The translations under genes were made by a program, and so were the position numbers. Positions 4,638 through 13,302 of a stretch of DNA of 39,761 bases are shown here, piece after piece. Below the pieces are notes generated by a model. The model did no database searches. It saw only the letters and a program-made list of their open reading frames with translations, and was not told the DNA's origin. The first letter of the stretch is position 1, and each line of letters starts with the position of its first letter. This DNA comes from a virus. The stretch is taken from the IMG/VR virus record IMGVR_UViG_3300022745_000079, positions 1 to 39,761 of that record; one strand, given 5' to 3'.

Positions 4638-4644
4638 CCGCACC

Positions 4645-5346
4645 ATGCTCAACCACCCTACCAACAAGATCATTGCCCATCTTCAGGGCGGTGTGCCCAA
4701 CCTCACCCGTGAGGCCGTCTGCGCGCTGACGGGCGTGAAAGACCGCCAGCTCGACAGCGTGCTGGCGGATGCCCTGGAGCTGGGTGCCCTGCTGCGTCGT
4801 CGGGTCGACGGGCAGATCGTGTTTTTGCTGCCCGAAGCCGTGCCGGAAAACACCCTGTGCCGGGCCAGCATCCCAGCGCCGGCAGAGGCCTTGCAGCCCA
4901 CTGCGCTGGGTGCACGCATTGCTGCCAAGCTGGACGACATTCCCGCCCAGGCGGCACCGGTGGCCGCCGCGCTGGACAAGCTGACGGGTACGAGCACCAG
5001 CAGTGCAGCCACCACGGCACCAGCAGCCTCCAAACCCAAGCGCGCCGGCCGCGCATTGGAGCTGCCGGCCGTTGACCTCACCCGCCTGGAAATCACCATG
5101 CGGCCCAAGCACACCCGGGCCACTGGCATCCAGCACAAGTGGGCACCACTGTTCGACCTGCTGGCTGCAAAGCCCATCGAGCAAGACAAGTCCCACGGCC
5201 CCACATTGCCCACCATCGAGCTGGGGCCCGAGTACCACGGCGCCCTGCAGCAGGCCGCCCGCGACTGGCAGGCCCGCAACCCAGGCCGCGCCGCGTTTGC
5301 AGTGCGCAAGGCGGGTGGGCTGACGCTGGTGCAGCGGGTGGAGTGA
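4645..5346 (+). CDS. Early protein with N-terminal wHTH-like domain (233 aa)
   Basis: The frame is open far upstream, but ATG 4645 (MLNHPTNKIIAHLQGGVPN) begins just after the preceding stop and starts the conserved-looking part. Residues 1-65 look like a winged helix (LTREAVCALTGVKDRQLDSV, then a strand RVDGQIVFLLP). Residues 66-150 are an Ala/Pro/Thr-rich linker. The C-terminal domain (LEITMRPKHTRATGIQHKWA...YHGALQQAARDWQARNPGRA) is unrecognised. A DNA-binding or replication-accessory role is possible given the absence of any obvious replication protein, but this is inference only. Confidence 0.6.
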   Translation: MLNHPTNKIIAHLQGGVPNLTREAVCALTGVKDRQLDSVLADALELGALLRRRVDGQIVFLLPEAVPENTLCRASIPAPAEALQPTALGARIAAKLDDIPAQAAPVAAALDKLTGTSTSSAATTAPAASKPKRAGRALELPAVDLTRLEITMRPKHTRATGIQHKWAPLFDLLAAKPIEQDKSHGPTLPTIELGPEYHGALQQAARDWQARNPGRAAFAVRKAGGLTLVQRVE

Positions 5347-6326: not shown

Positions 6327-7745
6327 TTACTCCGTGGAAAGCACTGGATGCGCAGTGACCTCGTCCGTGTGGAAACGGTGATGGCACTCCTTGCAGAGCA
6401 CCAGCAGCAGGGTCATGTTGTCCGGCCCGGGCAGCGTCCTGTGGATGTCCAGTTCGGACGTCTCAAAGACGCCCCTGCAGGAATGACAGCGGCACCCTGC
6501 CTTGGCCAGCGTGTCGGTGCGCAGCGCCTGTGGAATGCGGCTCCCGTAGCGCATGTAGACCGGCGCGGGCATCTGGTCGGGCTCGTCTTGAATGCGGCCG
6601 AACAGCAGGCGGGCGCGCAGCACCTCGAAGCTGTACCCACGGCCCTGGCGGTTGATGGTCTTGGCGACCCCGTTGAGGGCCTCCGTGTAGGCGTTCGTGA
6701 TGGGGTGGGCGAAGTAGGCCAGTATCTCAGTGCGCCAGTTCTTCATCATGGTCAGCAGCACCTTGAAGTCCGCCTTCAGGTCAGCCGGCACGGTGGCCGG
6801 GAAGGCGTCATAGGCGGCGATGGCCTGTTTCCGAGGCAGGTCGTAGATGCCGAAGAACGCTTCCTTCAGCCGGTGCGCGGCGGCCAGCTCGGGCGTGTTG
6901 TCCAGCCACATGTCCACGTTGAACCGCTGCTTCTCGTTGAGCTGGGCGTAGCGCATGTTCAGGAGCGCCTTGGAGCGCAGCCAGTCCCAGCGTTCTCCTG
7001 GCTTCTTGAGCTTCTGCAGGCGGATGCGGACTCGCTCCATGCAGTAGCTGGCCGTCCTGACGACGTGGAACTTGTCGATGACCACCGGTGCGCCGGGCAG
7101 CAGCTGGTGGGCCACATCACGGTACGGGCGCCACATGTCGATGGCCACACCCATGACCTGGCGCCGCTCCCGGTAGTGGTTCAGCCACGTCGCCAACGTG
7201 TCCCGGCTACGGTCGGCCAGCATCTCGATGGGCTTGCGGCTGCCCACGTCGGTGATGACGCAGCGCATCTTCCCGTCGATTTGCGTCTCGTCGATGCCCA
7301 GCCAGGTGGGAAGCTGCGGCCGATAGGCCCTGGTCAGCTCATCGATGTGGTCCCCGGCCAGGGTGCGCACGGTCTTGTCATCGCAGCCGATGTGGTTGGC
7401 GATGCGCACGAAGGTGTCACGCAGGGACTGCTGCCGGATGTAGGCCGCGCAGCGCTCCGTCATGCGCATCTCGGCATGGATGCCCGCCAGGGGCTGCTGG
7501 AAGGTCTCCCCGCAGTCCCGGCACTTGAACCGCTGCACCTTGGCCTTGATGATGGTCGGGCAGCCACGAATGGGGCTGTCGCGGTACATGACCGTGGTGG
7601 TGCCGTGCCGATACAGCCGGCCCACGACGCCGCACTTCTGGCAGACGTCGGTCTGGACGGTGTACTCCGCCTCGATGTCGTAGGTGGCCCCGTCGCAGTG
7701 CTGGCTCAGCACCTTCCAGCCAGGCAGGTCAAGGATGTCGCTCAT
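6327..7745 (-). CDS. ISL3-family transposase with C-terminal HNH/zinc-finger tail
   Basis: A 472-residue protein. The N-terminal zinc ribbon has CQKCG near residue 33 and KCRDCGETF near residue 75. An HTH and a DDE catalytic core follow (WLGIDETQIDG, VAIDMWRPYRD, and NAYTEALNG for the third acidic residue). All three acids are present and the frame is intact, so it may be active. Residues from about 418 form an added module: C420-x2-C423, DIH at about 433-435, DNM at about 442-444, then CKECHHRFH. This is the pattern of an HNH endonuclease finger, which I do not know as a standard part of ISL3 enzymes. GGTGGG precedes the ATG. Confidence 0.88.
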   Translation of the reverse strand: MSDILDLPGWKVLSQHCDGATYDIEAEYTVQTDVCQKCGVVGRLYRHGTTTVMYRDSPIRGCPTIIKAKVQRFKCRDCGETFQQPLAGIHAEMRMTERCAAYIRQQSLRDTFVRIANHIGCDDKTVRTLAGDHIDELTRAYRPQLPTWLGIDETQIDGKMRCVITDVGSRKPIEMLADRSRDTLATWLNHYRERRQVMGVAIDMWRPYRDVAHQLLPGAPVVIDKFHVVRTASYCMERVRIRLQKLKKPGERWDWLRSKALLNMRYAQLNEKQRFNVDMWLDNTPELAAAHRLKEAFFGIYDLPRKQAIAAYDAFPATVPADLKADFKVLLTMMKNWRTEILAYFAHPITNAYTEALNGVAKTINRQGRGYSFEVLRARLLFGRIQDEPDQMPAPVYMRYGSRIPQALRTDTLAKAGCRCHSCRGVFETSELDIHRTLPGPDNMTLLLVLCKECHHRFHTDEVTAHPVLSTE

Positions 7746-7763
7746 CCCACCATTGTGCGGGTG

Positions 7764-7889: not shown

Positions 7890-7905
7890 TTCGCGCCCCT
7901 TTTTA

Positions 7906-7980
7906 GGCGGCTCGATGGGAGGGCTCGCGCCCTGCCGGTTCGCGCAAGCGGTGCCCGGTCTTCCAACCCGTCGAGCCGCC
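7906..7980 (+). ncRNA. P4 CI-type immunity RNA candidate
   Basis: A 75-base segment closed by a perfect 10-bp stem: GGCGGCTCGA (7906-7915) with TCGAGCCGCC (7971-7980). Inside are AGGGC-TCGC-GCCCT (7920-7933) and CGC-GCAA-GCG with a GNRA loop (7941-7950). The unpaired strand before the closing stem, CTTCCAACCCG (7960-7970), is complementary to box A upstream and to box C downstream. In phage P4 the CI RNA is a processed, folded RNA of 69 bases whose seqB pairs with seqA and seqC to terminate the early transcript. Length, closing stem, A-B-C order and the following genes all agree. Identity is by structure and order, not sequence identity to P4. Confidence 0.65.
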
Positions 7981-7986
7981 GCCATT

Positions 7987-8570: not shown

Positions 8571-9281
8571 ATGAGCAACATCATCATCGCCGCCACGGCG
8601 GTCACCATGACCAGCCGCGACATCGCCGAGCTGACCGGGAAGGAGCACAAGCATGTGCTGCGCGACATCCGCGTGATGCTCGCCGAGCTGTCCCTGCCCG
8701 AACAGGGGTATGCCCAGAACTGGACCGACCCCCAAAACGGGCAGAGCTACCCGCTGCTGTCGCTGCCCAAGGACCTGACCATCACCCTGGTGTCGGGCTA
8801 CTCGGTCGCCATGCGGCACCGCATCGTCACCCGGTGGCAGGAGCTGGAAGCGGAGGCCGCCGACCCCGTGAAGGCCCTGAACGACCCCTCCAAGCTGCGC
8901 CAGGTCCTGCTGGGCTACACGGAGAAGGTGCTGGCCCTGGAACACCAGGTGGAGGAGCTTGCGCCGAAGGCGGAAGCCCTGGACAGGCTGGAAACGGGCA
9001 GCGACGGCAGCTTCTGCCTCACGGACGCGGCCAAGGCCCTCCAGGTCCAGCCCAGGAAGTTCACCGCCCGCCTGCAGCAGATGGGCTGGATATACCGCCG
9101 CCCCATGGGCACCGGCTGGCTGGCCTACCAGGACCGCATCACGATGGGCGTGATGGAGCACAAGGTGACCACGGGCGACAAGTCGGACGGCAGCGAGTGG
9201 TCTTCCACGCAGGTGCGCGTGACCGCCAAGGGCATGGCACGGCTTGCACTGCTCATAGCCAAAGAGCCGGTTTCAGCATGA
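8571..9281 (+). CDS. Phage antirepressor, Rha-type N-terminus with KilAC C-terminus
   Basis: A 236-residue two-domain protein. Residues 10-85 are Rha-like (TMTSRDIAELTGKEHKHVLR, then KDLTITLVSGYSVAMRHRIV). A coiled-coil linker follows (about 100-135, VLALEHQVEELAPKAEALDR). Residues 140-235 form a KilAC/ANT domain (FCLTDAAKALQVQPRKFTAR, MGWIYRR, GWLAYQD, VRVTAKGMARLALL). KilAC antirepressors inactivate CI-type repressors, which fits a CI-like protein lacking a self-cleavage domain. GGAG precedes the start, 3 bases after the upstream stop, so the two genes form one unit downstream of the RNA switch. Confidence 0.9.
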   Translation: MSNIIIAATAVTMTSRDIAELTGKEHKHVLRDIRVMLAELSLPEQGYAQNWTDPQNGQSYPLLSLPKDLTITLVSGYSVAMRHRIVTRWQELEAEAADPVKALNDPSKLRQVLLGYTEKVLALEHQVEELAPKAEALDRLETGSDGSFCLTDAAKALQVQPRKFTARLQQMGWIYRRPMGTGWLAYQDRITMGVMEHKVTTGDKSDGSEWSSTQVRVTAKGMARLALLIAKEPVSA

Positions 9282-9343: not shown

Positions 9344-9402
9344 ATCCGAAGAGCCGAGCTAAGGGGCGCCGTCAGGCGTCCCGCTTGAGCGAAGTGTTAG
9401 GC
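9344..9402 (+). repeat. attC-like recombination site 0 (degenerate left half)
   Basis: Ends with R' box GTTAGGC (9396-9402). The core pairs GGGGCGCC (9363-9370) with GGCGTCCC (9375-9382). The right arm CGCTTGAGCG...GTTAGGC is almost the same as in attC1, and GAGCTAAG (9356-9363) is shared with the attC1 left arm. The R'' box is not a clear RYYYAAC, so the left boundary is a guess; it may be the entry point of the cassette cluster. Confidence 0.5.
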
Positions 9403-9427
9403 CCCAACCAACCGGAGCGAGAAGACG

Positions 9428-9574
9428 ATGGCATGCCCAAAGTGCGGTTGCAAGACCGTGTACCAGTACGACGATGAGGACGAACCGCAGGATGAACGGC
9501 TGCAACGCTGCGCAGCCTGCGGTGAAGTGTTTGACCTTGATGACCACACCGACGAGGACGACGATGAAAGCTGA
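9428..9574 (+). CDS. Small zinc-ribbon protein (48 aa), cassette 1
   Basis: Reads MACPKCGCKTVYQYDDEDEP and continues to a second pair CAACGEVF, then an acidic tail ending DEDDDES. Two CxxC pairs 23 residues apart make a minimal zinc ribbon. GGAGCGAGAAGACG precedes the ATG. Small zinc ribbons of this kind bind nucleic acid or proteins such as RNA polymerase, but no specific role can be read. It is the first gene after the recombination site at 9396 and overlaps the next gene by 11 bases. Confidence 0.65.
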   Translation: MACPKCGCKTVYQYDDEDEPQDERLQRCAACGEVFDLDDHTDEDDDES

Positions 9575-9743
9575 TGCACAAACCCACCAAGCCTTGAGCC
9601 TGCTTCAGCAGGCGTTCGATGCACTGGAAGCCACGGCCGACAGCGACATTGACACGTTTGAGGACGAGGAAGAAGAAGCCCAAGCCGTGCCCGCGCAGTA
9701 CGCCTGCCGGAAGATCATGGAAGCGATGGGCCTGCTGCGATGA
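9564..9743 (+). CDS. Small acidic helical protein (59 aa), cassette 1
   Basis: Starts MKADAQTHQALSLLQQAFDA. GAGGA before the ATG lies within the end of the zinc-ribbon gene. A long helix is followed by a very acidic segment (DSDIDTFEDEEEEAQ) and a C-terminal helix. The acidic surface could mimic nucleic acid, as in some phage anti-defence proteins, but that is only a thought prompted by the charge. Its stop shares bases with the next ATG (ATGA). Confidence 0.55.
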   Translation: MKADAQTHQALSLLQQAFDALEATADSDIDTFEDEEEEAQAVPAQYACRKIMEAMGLLR

Positions 9744-9814
9744 GCGAAGGACAACTTGCTGCCCTGCTGTGGGGCACCGTCATCCTCTGTGTGCTTTGGA
9801 GCATTGACCGATGA
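9740..9814 (+). CDS. 24-residue membrane peptide, cassette 1
   Basis: MSEGQLAALLWGTVILCVLW then SIDR: a single hydrophobic segment with short polar ends, exactly filling the space between two genes with ATGA overlaps on both sides (9740-9743 and 9811-9814). Such tiny membrane peptides are common in phage early operons and are routinely missed. The function is unknown; the support is the double coupling. Confidence 0.5.
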   Translation: MSEGQLAALLWGTVILCVLWSIDR

Positions 9815-10293
9815 CCACCGATACCACCAACAGCCCTACCGCGATGCAGGCCGGCATGAGTAACGACGACCTGTTGGCCGCCTGGATGCGCAAGCTGCCA
9901 GGCCGAGCGCCGCAAGGTCAAGAACTGTCAGCGTTCGCGCTTGGCGTCGAAGTCGGAGCGGAGCGGTACGCCGAGACGTGGGATGCCCTGCAGTTTGCGG
10001 TGAAGAACTATCAGGACATGAGCAGCAAGAAGGACCACGCGACGGCGACCGTCTATCAGTTCCATTACGCGCTGAAGGACGCAGGATGGCACCCTGGCCG
10101 AACCGACGACAACCTGTGCGATGTGATCCGCGCAAAAGGCAAGGAGATGCAGGAACTGCGAACACGCCTTGACGATGCTCTTGAAACGCTGCGCATGGTG
10201 GACGACAACAACCGCGTGGACGCTGGCGAAGACCGCAAGGCTTGGCGCGGCGACTTCGTTGAGTCTGAGGTGCGGCGGGTTCTTGGGGCCTAA
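9811..10293 (+). CDS. Hypothetical protein (160 aa), cassette 1
   Basis: Starts at the ATG overlapping the membrane-peptide stop, with TTGGAG upstream. It contains a helix-rich start (SNDDLLAAWMRKLPGRAPQG), a middle segment (ATATVYQFHYALKDAGWHPG) and a coiled-coil-like C-terminal part (MQELRTRLDDALETLRMVDD). It resembles phage accessory proteins of unknown function. Its TAA stop lies inside the R'' box GCCTAAC of attC1, the position expected for the last gene of an integron cassette. Confidence 0.6.
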   Translation: MTTDTTNSPTAMQAGMSNDDLLAAWMRKLPGRAPQGQELSAFALGVEVGAERYAETWDALQFAVKNYQDMSSKKDHATATVYQFHYALKDAGWHPGRTDDNLCDVIRAKGKEMQELRTRLDDALETLRMVDDNNRVDAGEDRKAWRGDFVESEVRRVLGA

Positions 10294-10389
10294 CGCAGAG
10301 CTAAGCGGACCGCGACGGCCCGCACGAAAGGACGAAGATGGAACAGAGTAGCCGGGCCGTTGTGGGTCCGCTTGAGCGCACAGTTAGGC
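10288..10389 (+). repeat. Integron-type attC site 1
   Basis: R'' GCCTAAC (10288-10294) and R' GTTAGGC (10383-10389) are perfect complements and match the attC consensus RYYYAAC/GTTRRRY. Between them AAGCGGACC (10303-10311) pairs with GGTCCGCTT (10365-10373), and ACGGCCCG (10315-10322) with CGGGCCGT (10353-10360). The small mispaired bases between arms are typical of attC hairpins. The loop carries AAAGGA and an ATG (10338). The orientation is canonical: R'' sits at the stop of the upstream gene. Confidence 0.75.
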
Positions 10390-10724
10390 GTGTAGCCGAA
10401 GCGTGGCGCGCGTGGAGACGCCGCCGCTACTGGACGCAAGCCCGACAGGTGGAGCACCTGCGCACGATGCTGCTGGCCGACCACCGATGGCTGGCCGCCG
10501 ACAAGACCGCCGACGCGCTGACCGAGCGTTACCTGGCCGCGCTGGCGCCCGACTGGTACTCGCGCAGCCACGAGGACACCGCACGGCTTCGCAGCCGACT
10601 TGGGCTGGTGCCGCCGAGGGGCTATGACCCAGGACCGGGACCGGAGCCGTGCAAGCACCACGATGAGCCGCGCGGCTGCTACCGCGTGCGTTGCCAGCTA
10701 GGGAGAAAGTGTGTTGACGCCTAA
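10338..10724 (+). CDS. Hypothetical protein starting in the attC1 loop (128 aa), cassette 2
   Basis: The ATG at 10338 has AAAGGA seven bases upstream, both inside the attC1 loop, and the frame runs through the R' box into cassette 2. The first 25 residues are therefore encoded by attC sequence; a later start is possible if that part is incidental. The body is basic and helical (WRAWRRRRYWTQARQVEHLR, LLADHRWLAADKTADALTER). The C-terminus has CKHHDEPRGCYRVRCQLGRKC, a possible metal site. The TAA stop is inside the R'' box of attC2. Unknown function. Confidence 0.55.
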   Translation: MEQSSRAVVGPLERTVRRVAEAWRAWRRRRYWTQARQVEHLRTMLLADHRWLAADKTADALTERYLAALAPDWYSRSHEDTARLRSRLGLVPPRGYDPGPGPEPCKHHDEPRGCYRVRCQLGRKCVDA

Positions 10725-10788
10725 CGCCATGCTCAACGGACCCTGAAGGCGGCACGCCGTAAGGGGTCCGTTGCAGCAAGAGTTATGC
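10719..10788 (+). repeat. Integron-type attC site 2
   Basis: A compact 70-base site. R'' GCCTAAC (10719-10725) and R' GTTATGC (10782-10788) differ from full complementarity at one base. L'' CAACGGACCC (10734-10743) pairs perfectly with L' GGGTCCGTTG (10764-10773), and a short GGCG-GCA-CGCC hairpin forms the tip. Length, box order and partial symmetry match classical 59-base elements. The recombination point would be between G10782 and T10783. Confidence 0.8.
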
Positions 10789-10820
10789 AGCGCCTGGTGG
10801 CGCAACACGGGAGATTGAGT

Positions 10821-11168
10821 ATGGCTACAGATATTGAACTGTTGCAAGCCGCAGCCAAGGCTGCTGGACTTGAATGCGAGTGGCACCCCGGATGCGGCGA
10901 CGCGCTGCACTTGACGGCGCCAGACGCTACGGCGATTTACTGGAACCCGTTGCGCAACGATTCGGACGCTTTCCGCCTTGCGAACACCCTGCGCCTGAGC
11001 ATTTACCACGCCGAGCTTGCCGTGATTGCCAAGCACAAACAGTATTCCTGGGAGTGGATGGGCGAAGGGGTCAATGAAGACCACGGGGACCGAGATGCGG
11101 CTACCCGCCGCGTGATCGTTCGCGCAGCCGCCGCAATGGCTGCATCGCCGGCTGTTGGTGCTGCATAA
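10821..11168 (+). CDS. DUF2591-like phage protein (115 aa), cassette 3
   Basis: Starts MATDIELLQAAAKAAGLECE after GGGAG. The frame is open back to an ATG within the attC2 R' box (10785), but the internal start has the ribosome site. The central motif YWNPLRNDSDAFRLANTL and the C-terminal AATRRVIVRAAAAMA are the pattern of a widespread phage protein family (WNPL...D..ALRLA...RRAIVRAAAEI) of unknown function. It is flanked by attC2 and a third R''-like box; its TAA is inside GCATAAC. So it is phage-type cargo held in an integron-type cassette. Confidence 0.75.
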   Translation: MATDIELLQAAAKAAGLECEWHPGCGDALHLTAPDATAIYWNPLRNDSDAFRLANTLRLSIYHAELAVIAKHKQYSWEWMGEGVNEDHGDRDAATRRVIVRAAAAMAASPAVGAA

Positions 11169-11189
11169 CGCCATTTAGGCCGCACACCC
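11163..11189 (+). repeat. Half attC-like site 3
   Basis: GCATAAC (11163-11169) overlaps the stop of the cassette-3 gene, and the next bases (GCC, then ATTTAGGCCGCAC) parallel the left arm of attC2. No matching right arm or GTTRRRY box follows within about 100 bases, so the site appears truncated at the end of the cluster. Confidence 0.45.
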
Positions 11190-11204: not shown

Positions 11205-11246
11205 GCCTATCGCTCCGCCCTGCATAGCAGCGCAGGCGCGATAGGC
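11205..11246 (+). repeat. 42-base inverted repeat with bulges
   Basis: GCCTATCGC (11205-11213) and GCGATAGGC (11238-11246) are perfect complements; GCC-TGC (11217-11223, with a bulged C) pairs with GCAGGC (11232-11237). There is no T tract. The bulged two-arm shape recalls attC, but the outer boxes do not fit the consensus. It could be an eroded recombination site or an RNA structure before the gene at 11267. Confidence 0.5.
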
Positions 11247-11266: not shown

Positions 11267-11497
11267 ATGACTACATGGCACGAAGGTCCGCCACCAAGCG
11301 TCGGCTGGTGGCCGGCATCGACATGCCGGAACCCGTCCATACTGCGATGGTATGACGGCATGTGTTGGAGCGTGGCAGTGCACGCGTCGCTCGGCGCTAA
11401 CACGGCGGGGGTTTTGGCCTCGCGCCGTGCCTACAAGGAATTTGGAATCGAGTGGACCGACCGACCGGCCGACTGGCCGGAAAGGAGCAGGACGTGA
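11267..11497 (+). CDS. Hypothetical protein (76 aa)
   Basis: Starts MTTWHEGPPPSVGWWPASTC, with AAGGAAA ten bases before the ATG. It is Trp-rich, with a motif LRWYDGMCWSVAVHAS like small phage proteins that carry a W-W(D/N)G-W-S pattern. The C-terminal part (FGIEWTDRPADWPERS) repeats the Trp-rich style. No assigned function. Its stop overlaps the GTG of the next gene (GTGA at 11494-11497), so the two are coupled. Confidence 0.6.
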   Translation: MTTWHEGPPPSVGWWPASTCRNPSILRWYDGMCWSVAVHASLGANTAGVLASRRAYKEFGIEWTDRPADWPERSRT

Positions 11498-12134: not shown

Positions 12135-12377
12135 ATGACCGCCGCCCTCATCACCACCGCCGACATCGCCGAGCTGATCGGCGTCAGTCGGCGGCACGTC
12201 ACCGACCGGCTCACCAAGGACCCCACGTTCCCGGCGCCCACCGTGCGGCTATCACAAAAGCTCGTGCGCTGGGACCGGGACCAGGTGCTCGCGTGGCTCA
12301 CAGCCGGGCGGCGATCTGCTCCGGCGTCTCCCGGTAGTAGCGCGACAGCAGCATCCGCAAGTCTCGATGCCCGCTGA
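12135..12377 (+). CDS. AlpA/excisionase-like HTH protein (80 aa)
   Basis: Starts MTAALITTADIAELIGVSRR after AAGGA. The motif ITTADIAELIGVSRRHVTDR with KDPTFPAP...VRWDRDQVLAWL is the MerR-like winged-helix layout of AlpA/Xis proteins. It is the last gene of the rightward operon, and its 3' 80 bases overlap the 3' end of the convergent integrase gene. The last 20 residues are Ala/Ser-rich and may reflect that overlap. It probably steers the integrase toward excision; AlpA-type transcription control is the alternative. Confidence 0.8.
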   Translation: MTAALITTADIAELIGVSRRHVTDRLTKDPTFPAPTVRLSQKLVRWDRDQVLAWLTAGRRSAPASPGSSATAASASLDAR

Positions 12378-13290
12378 TCCGGGCCAGCGTCATCACATCC
12401 ACCCGCCGGGCCAGCAGCGTCAGCGCCTCAGCCCGCGAGTCGTGAAAATGCAAGCCCTTGATCAGCAGCGAATCCCGCGCCCGGCGGAACAGCACATCGA
12501 GCGAGGCCGACGACACCGGCAACGCGTGGCCGCCCAACTGGCCCAGCAGCCGCACCGCATGCCTGGTCAACGGCACCACCCGCGCTCCCTCACGCTCCAC
12601 CGTCTTGTGGCTGGTCAGCGTGGCCGTGCGGCGCTGCAGGTCCACCGATGAGGCGTCCAGCTGCAGCACCTCACCGGCCCGCATGGCCGTGCGCAGGGCC
12701 AGCAGAAACGCCCAGGCCGTGGCCTCCATCGCCGTGCTGGGCGCCCGGCCCGTGCGGTACCCCAGCCAGCGCACGATGCGCCGCATCTCACGCCACCCGA
12801 TGCGCCGCTGTCGCGGCAGGCTGTCCGTCGGCAGCTTGATCGCCCGCCACGGCGACTCCAGCGGGCACCACAGCCACTCCTTCGCGGCTACGGTCCACAC
12901 GTTGCGCAGCAGGTTGATTTCCCGCAGCACGGAGGCCGGCTGCACCGTCTTCAGCCGCGCGTCCCGCCACTCCGCCAGGTCGGACGCAGTGATCTCGTGC
13001 AGCACCTTGGCGCACAGCGCCGGGTGATCCCGCCGCAGCCGCGCGAACCGCAGCGACTCCGCCCGCGACCCGCGCTTGTGCTCGCTGACCGCCTCCTCGT
13101 ATTTCGTCAGCGCCTCGGCCAGCGTGCGCTTCGGCCAGCGCCCGATCCGACCCTCGGAAATCGCCGCCTCTTCGCGCGTCGCCCAGGCCTGTGCGGCCGC
13201 CTTGGTCAGAAAGGATTTTGAGTACCGCGGCACCCCCTCGCGCTCAATCTCCGCGCGCCACTTGTCACCCCGCTTGCGGATGTACGCCAT
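12298..13290 (-). CDS. int: Tyrosine site-specific integrase
   Basis: About 330 residues, reading MAYIRKRGDKWRAEIEREGV from ATG 13290 with GGGGG upstream; an ATG at 13302 adds four residues. An N-terminal arm-binding region and a SAM-like core-binding region precede the catalytic domain, which has Arg in TAMRAGE, Lys in SHKTVER, His-x-x-Arg in HFHDSRAE, a second His in ISGHRD and the nucleophile in SRYYRET. All the expected catalytic residues are present, so it should be active. It mediates attP x attB recombination. The repeats at 13303-13540 next to its start are likely its binding sites. Confidence 0.93.
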   Translation of the reverse strand: MAYIRKRGDKWRAEIEREGVPRYSKSFLTKAAAQAWATREEAAISEGRIGRWPKRTLAEALTKYEEAVSEHKRGSRAESLRFARLRRDHPALCAKVLHEITASDLAEWRDARLKTVQPASVLREINLLRNVWTVAAKEWLWCPLESPWRAIKLPTDSLPRQRRIGWREMRRIVRWLGYRTGRAPSTAMEATAWAFLLALRTAMRAGEVLQLDASSVDLQRRTATLTSHKTVEREGARVVPLTRHAVRLLGQLGGHALPVSSASLDVLFRRARDSLLIKGLHFHDSRAEALTLLARRVDVMTLARISGHRDLRMLLSRYYRETPEQIAARL

Positions 13291-13302
13291 CGTCGCCCCC
13301 AT

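Follow-up and report, generated by a model that had tools for sequence, protein, structure and literature searches.

Clusters of attC sites without intI (CALINs) are known from phage genomes, and five of the six phage attC sites tested were recombined by IntI1 (Qi 2023, PMC9892861). Those clusters, whose cassette genes include methyltransferase genes, are intI-less like the one described here; however, where gene direction is described in that study the arrays are of the typical same-direction kind, whereas the present array has its genes in reverse orientation to attC, and neither phage-to-phage cassette exchange nor start codons in attC loops, both reported here, are described there. Phage-borne bacterial resistance integrons, at least as they are cited in the same paper, represent integron parts on a phage, while the cassettes of the present locus hold phage genes. 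The sedentary chromosomal integrons of Xanthomonadales and Burkholderiales have the same attC sequence and fold, the same matching of cassette ends and the same crossover position; their genes, in contrast, run forward toward attC with a divergent intI, whereas the phage genes are reversed and run toward intI co-directionally. In Treponema integrons (PMC3607928), intI and the cassette genes share one direction, as in the intI-bearing phages considered below, but there intI lies upstream of the cassettes and is transcribed toward attI, whereas in the phages it lies downstream of reversed cassettes. We found no reports in the open-access literature of start codons carried by attC or of arrays whose genes have this reversed orientation. 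The reversed architecture, the start codons in attC loops and the exchange of cassettes between phages appear to be new.

The window, that is, the whole stretch of DNA analysed, is a viral contig of 39,761 bp from a metagenomic assembly. It carries a siphophage gene set (terminase, portal, protease-capsid fusion, tape measure, endolysin, anti-repressor and tyrosine integrase), and the virus is a temperate phage. Between the anti-repressor and the integrase lies an array of three attC sites and a lone R box (9344-11169). Its left flank is the anti-repressor gene (8571-9281, plus strand; profile matches to Rha and KilAC) and its right flank an excisionase or AlpA-like gene (12135-12377, plus; phrog_66, E 1e-8), followed by a phage tyrosine integrase gene (12298-13302, minus), which matches PF00589 and phrog_1 without an NCBIfam integron-integrase match and is not IntI. 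A profile search with TIGR02249 revealed no integron integrase in the 39,761-bp record. With three attC sites within 1.5 kb, scoring 23-50 bits with the covariance model R1, and no such integrase, the array is a CALIN in a temperate phage, as an earlier reading of the sequence alone (the sequence-only reading) had proposed; the window lacks the intI gene of a complete integron.

The same reading had placed two full attC sites, a degenerate site and a half site in this region, and sequence, folding, a box scanner and the covariance model bore this out. Sites s1 (10288-10389, minus) and s2 (10719-10788, minus) have the R''-L''-L'-R' architecture with extrahelical bases on one arm. In folding, no more than 1 of 200 shuffles outdid either of them (z -3.7 and -4.2 for s1, -4.55 and -4.75 for s2). 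Site s0 (9344-9402, minus) has canonical L''/L' pairing and has lost its R' box, the position reading TCTTCGG rather than GTTRRRY; its plain folding is no better than that of shuffles (z +0.48 and -0.70). The half site is a lone R' box (GTTATGC on the minus strand, 11163-11169), whose partner on the attI or attC side is absent from the window. A scanner for R and L boxes ranked s2 first (31) and s1 second (28), both above the maximum of 27 obtained over 200 simulated 40-kb sequences.

Model R1 was built from 19 aligned attC sites adjoining integron integrases in Xanthomonadales-type and Burkholderiales chromosomes, with no phage site among them. Its pairing is supported by covariation (0.402 versus 0.153 in shuffles), with 90.7% of cells paired, the training sites having first been located by a scanner that demands pairing. 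R1 scored all three window sites on the minus strand, giving 50.2 bits for s1 (E 7e-10), 34.1 bits for s2 (E 4.5e-6) and 23.3 bits for s0 (E 0.0015), with neither full site falling below threshold. Across 927 kb of related phage loci it reported three sites only, all in L002, a genuine array. The sites in the window are integron-type attC and resemble those of Xanthomonadales and Burkholderiales chromosomes.

The predicted crossovers (G^TT on the minus strand, AA^C on the plus strand) fall between 10293 and 10294, 10724 and 10725, and 11168 and 11169, and the gene groups finish at 10293, 10724 and 11168, their stop codons flush with these points. From the positions of the boxes, cassette I (10725-11168, plus) consists of s2 and the gene at 10821-11168 and has an AA^C crossover at each end; cassette II (10294-10724, plus) consists of s1 and the gene at 10338-10724; and cassette III (9344-10293, plus, left limit approximate) consists of s0 and four overlapping genes. 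The last cassette begins with a 48-aa zinc-ribbon protein gene (9428-9574, plus; phrog_10675, E 8e-6), followed by a 59-aa gene in an overlapping frame of the cassette operon that has no family match (9564-9743, plus), a weakly called 24-aa putative membrane peptide with ATGA overlaps on both sides and no homologue (9740-9814, plus), and a 160-aa gene with no family assigned (9811-10293, plus), which has relatives in L024 (63% over 49 aa) and L117 and whose TAA ends at the crossover. A 53% homologue of the zinc-ribbon gene lies directly 5' of a chromosomal-type intI in L387 (G196:C5:127001-147000, at about 4641-4787). The 128-aa gene of cassette II (10338-10724, plus) starts with an ATG in the s1 loop after AAGGA and ends with its TAA at the crossover; family searches with it gave no match. 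The gene of cassette I (10821-11168, plus), whose TAA likewise ends at the crossover, belongs to phrog_5086 (E 1e-20), in agreement with the earlier statement that this cassette carries a phage gene family.

Complementarity between the two ends of a segment spans 12 consecutive bases in cassette III, 9 in II and 10 in I, the last match being that of the lone R' box, the first end of cassette I, with 10782-10791. The boxes within the full sites are complementary over only 7 and 4 bases, less than the segment ends, and an excess of this kind marks a circularised cassette. The ends of 152 viral cassettes match at 6.88 of 9 positions versus 5.05 for random pairs, like those of 94 chromosomal cassettes (6.83 versus 4.73). 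Among sites with unequal boxes, the right box agrees with the opposite end of the cassette to which it belongs for 60 of 75 phage sites and 46 of 52 chromosomal ones.

The orientation of the genes sets this array apart from the chromosomal integrons. On the plus strand R1 gives only 19.5 bits for s1 and 8.3 bits for s2, the minus strand being better by 26-31 bits. Extrahelical bases define the R''-L'' arm and steer the choice of strand (Bouvier 2009, PMC2727003); on the coding strand they occupy the 3' half of the sites in the window and of almost every related viral site. When sites in 15 chromosomal integrons were oriented as a check, nearly all faced away from intI, a few were undecided and none faced toward it. 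The attC sites of the window are thus canonical on the minus strand and its genes are on the plus strand, so each gene is reversed relative to its own attC, which is the upstream and not the downstream one, and the usual rule of a gene oriented toward its own attC does not hold. The sequence-only reading had put the TAA codons inside an R'' box in the canonical cassette geometry. The TAA is indeed in an R box, available in either reading because R boxes are near-palindromic; however, with attC canonical on the minus strand this box is R', at the crossover.

The same direction prevails among related phages, where the codon model called 20 cassettes reversed and none forward, and 104 versus 6 in the set obtained by pattern scanning. 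Homology was used to assign gene strand because the longest-ORF call alone cannot be relied on in these GC-rich phages, nor can the codon model, trained on phages, on chromosomal cassettes. Across 104 cassettes, matches to 60 PHROG families came from the reversed ORFs and to a single family, weakly, from the forward ORFs. The functions of the reversed ORFs include DNA methyltransferases, an HNH endonuclease, a DHH phosphoesterase, PAPS reductase, a NinX-like protein and the restriction-alleviation protein Lar. Chromosomal control cassettes, judged by their longest ORF, were forward in 70 cases and reversed in 7. The codon model gives mixed gene directions for the intI-bearing G419 and L276; the two reversed ORFs of G419 that were tested match phage families and the two forward ORFs do not, two of three reversed ORFs of L271 have such matches, and the direction at the intI locus L386 (G278) is ambiguous. 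One record with a classic forward integron and intI (L257/G402) was excluded from the counts where possible. A Shine-Dalgarno-like motif together with an ATG, as in the s1 loop at the start of the cassette II gene, occurs in 103 long phage attC sites 47 times on the gene strand and 5 times on the other, compared with 4 and 1 in 48 chromosomal sites. Since many loops in the relatives hold start codons, the attC hairpins probably also influence translation.

Array-bearing phages were reached through relatives of the phrog_5086 cassette gene, and a pattern scan of 2.9 million viral contigs yielded 46 stretches; in a set of 42 pattern-scan loci, R1 found 216 sites at E <= 0.001. Arrays of the window type are present in dozens of viral contigs. 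Head, tail and tape-measure genes occur in G419 and G388, a protease-capsid fusion and a portal in G002, and a PF03237 terminase in 16 of the 44 records searched. Neither phage nucleotide searches nor comparison of the anti-repressor or integrase revealed a close relative of the window phage, and the evidence for mobility is drawn entirely from more distant phages and their assemblies.

Among these phages, cassettes of 98.6-100% identity have been gained, lost or relocated, and the breakpoints lie at AA^C. The blocks common to G004 and G005, of 970 bp (99.8%), 780 bp (99.9%) and 283 bp (100%), differ in order, and G004 has one extra cassette; because its breakpoints have only about 7-11 bp in common, misassembly is an unlikely cause of these differences. 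L275 and L276, both intI-bearing, differ by the presence of a cassette of about 757 bp, and the attC of L275 is the hybrid expected from excision between two attC sites. A cassette of 380-428 bp is common to L235, L248 and L270 at 99-100% identity, the contigs being otherwise different. The exchanges between phages are apparently recent. The earlier suggestion that phages feed cassettes to bacterial integrons gained no support, the exchange seen being between phages and the reversed architecture being unlike that of the chromosomal controls.

In G005, cassette I is represented by a homologue that has identical R-box ends and other neighbours, and this homologue carries a complete attC where the window keeps only the lone R' box. 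The two match through GCATAACGCCA, four bases beyond the R box, before diverging; because of this extension, a deleted attC at 11163-11169 is as likely as a pure target junction. The G005 homologue thereby weakens a clean insertion of the array at one target, which we had considered. In G002, where the phrog_5086 gene has no flanking attC, similarity is essentially confined to the coding region.

Full-length IntI proteins (424-479 bits, cut-off 265) are encoded in L221, a prophage in a Burkholderiales MAG, and in G388 and G419. In the four loci checked (L221, G388, G419 and L271), the intI gene follows the cassette genes in the same direction, at the attI end. Ten viral IntIs and that of L322 (G278), which adjoins a phage-type integrase, form one group in the IntI tree (support 91/92, with a bootstrap not fully settled); the remaining viral IntIs fall outside it. 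L386 (G278:C13:1-16000) has an IntI of this clade beside a tyrosine integrase that is related to that of the window (about 44%), together with seven attC sites. L286, L284, L285 and L287 represent a second, distant IntI-like viral group (36-38% to the L221 IntI), and one of the four has attC-like sites 5' of the integrase gene.

We consider it probable (about 0.85) that 9344-11169 represents three reversed integron-type cassettes in an early operon, whose sites s1 and s2 can be recombined by an IntI acting in trans, exchanging genes among phages. The three cassettes of phage early genes sit in the rightward early operon between anti-repressor and integrase, each in the order attC hairpin, gene or genes, and a TAA ending at the crossover. 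The strand that integron integrases recombine, the bottom strand of a canonical attC, is the coding strand, and the genes would be transcribed with the phage operon. Because the record has no integron integrase, we infer that IntI from a co-resident phage or the host could act in trans on the single-stranded coding strand; recombination of the folded s1 and s2 would then exchange early and counter-defence genes among phages. Several points count against this reading: the record has no integrase, both ends of the array are damaged, four genes in cassette III are unusual for a cassette, a close relative of the window phage with other cassette content was not found, and cassette movement was seen in other phages and in assemblies.

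The strongest competing explanation treats the array as a relic, with true attC cassettes inherited from an ancestor, now immobile and kept as genes of the early operon. The array does look partly decayed, with the R' box of s0 lost and the right-hand attC or attI gone, and it may be immobile because the integrase is absent, s0 has no intact R' box and the array ends on the right in a half site. However, s1 and s2 retain their R and L boxes and extrahelical bases, and cassettes in relatives have apparently moved recently; we regard a dead relic as possible, though less probable than a locus that can still recombine. It is very unlikely that ordinary bacterial-integron cassettes in canonical orientation were captured from a host chromosomal integron. 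Gene groups finishing inside R boxes, the resemblance to Xanthomonadales and Burkholderiales sites and the existence of phages with forward cassettes (Qi 2023) would agree with capture; the preference of R1 for the opposite strand, the forward majority of the chromosomal controls and the identity of the genes as phage early genes, with forward ORFs lacking homologues, disagree with it. That the sites are not attC at all and are look-alike RNA hairpins (terminators or translational control elements) between phage genes is hardly credible despite the start codons in many loops of relatives, given the matches to a chromosomal attC model, cassette-end matching as in chromosomal integrons, and the AA^C breakpoints and IntI neighbours in relatives.

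Beyond the reading of the window as reversed, still recombinable cassettes, we lean slightly towards a wider proposal, in which a lineage of Pseudomonadota temperate phages would keep integrons of its own, with an IntI from a mostly phage clade closing a cassette operon of the same direction, reversed cassettes, starts in attC loops and a stock of cassettes peculiar to phages, whose early and counter-defence genes (methyltransferases, Lar, NinX-like, HNH) are exchanged at attC; IntI-less phages such as that of the window would draw on this stock and borrow the enzyme in trans. Phage genome mosaicism is usually attributed to homologous or illegitimate recombination. The cassettes offer a plausible site-specific route to it, with exact breakpoints and a recombinase encoded in some phages, which would move restriction-evasion genes between phages, pointing to a gene-shuffling system common to phages. 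The gene-toward-attC rule of integrons is thus not universal, orientation relative to attC may separate the phage cassette pool from the bacterial one, and surveys of attC clusters that ignore gene strand would miss reversed arrays.

Several further features were observed. L244 and L255 each have two oppositely oriented attC arrays in one viral contig. L257/G402, the isolate-derived viral record with the forward integron, carries a terminase and at least 11 attC sites and is possibly a prophage adjoining a chromosomal integron. In the window, a short hairpin with perfect arms (GCCTATCGC...GCGATAGGC, 11205-11246) lies between the lone R box and the gene at 11267; it scores only 12 bits with the attC model and is perhaps a terminator. 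An Rfam search of the window, in a database that holds no attC family, gave as its sole match a C4 antisense RNA (RF01695, 52.7 bits; 7900-7986, plus) 5' of the anti-repressor, an arrangement like that of P1/P4-type Ant control. A transposase gene (about 6500-7750, minus; phrog_5749, E 8e-123) lies on the strand opposite the early genes, and its ORF runs on into a Cys/His-rich tail that by eye resembles an HNH motif.
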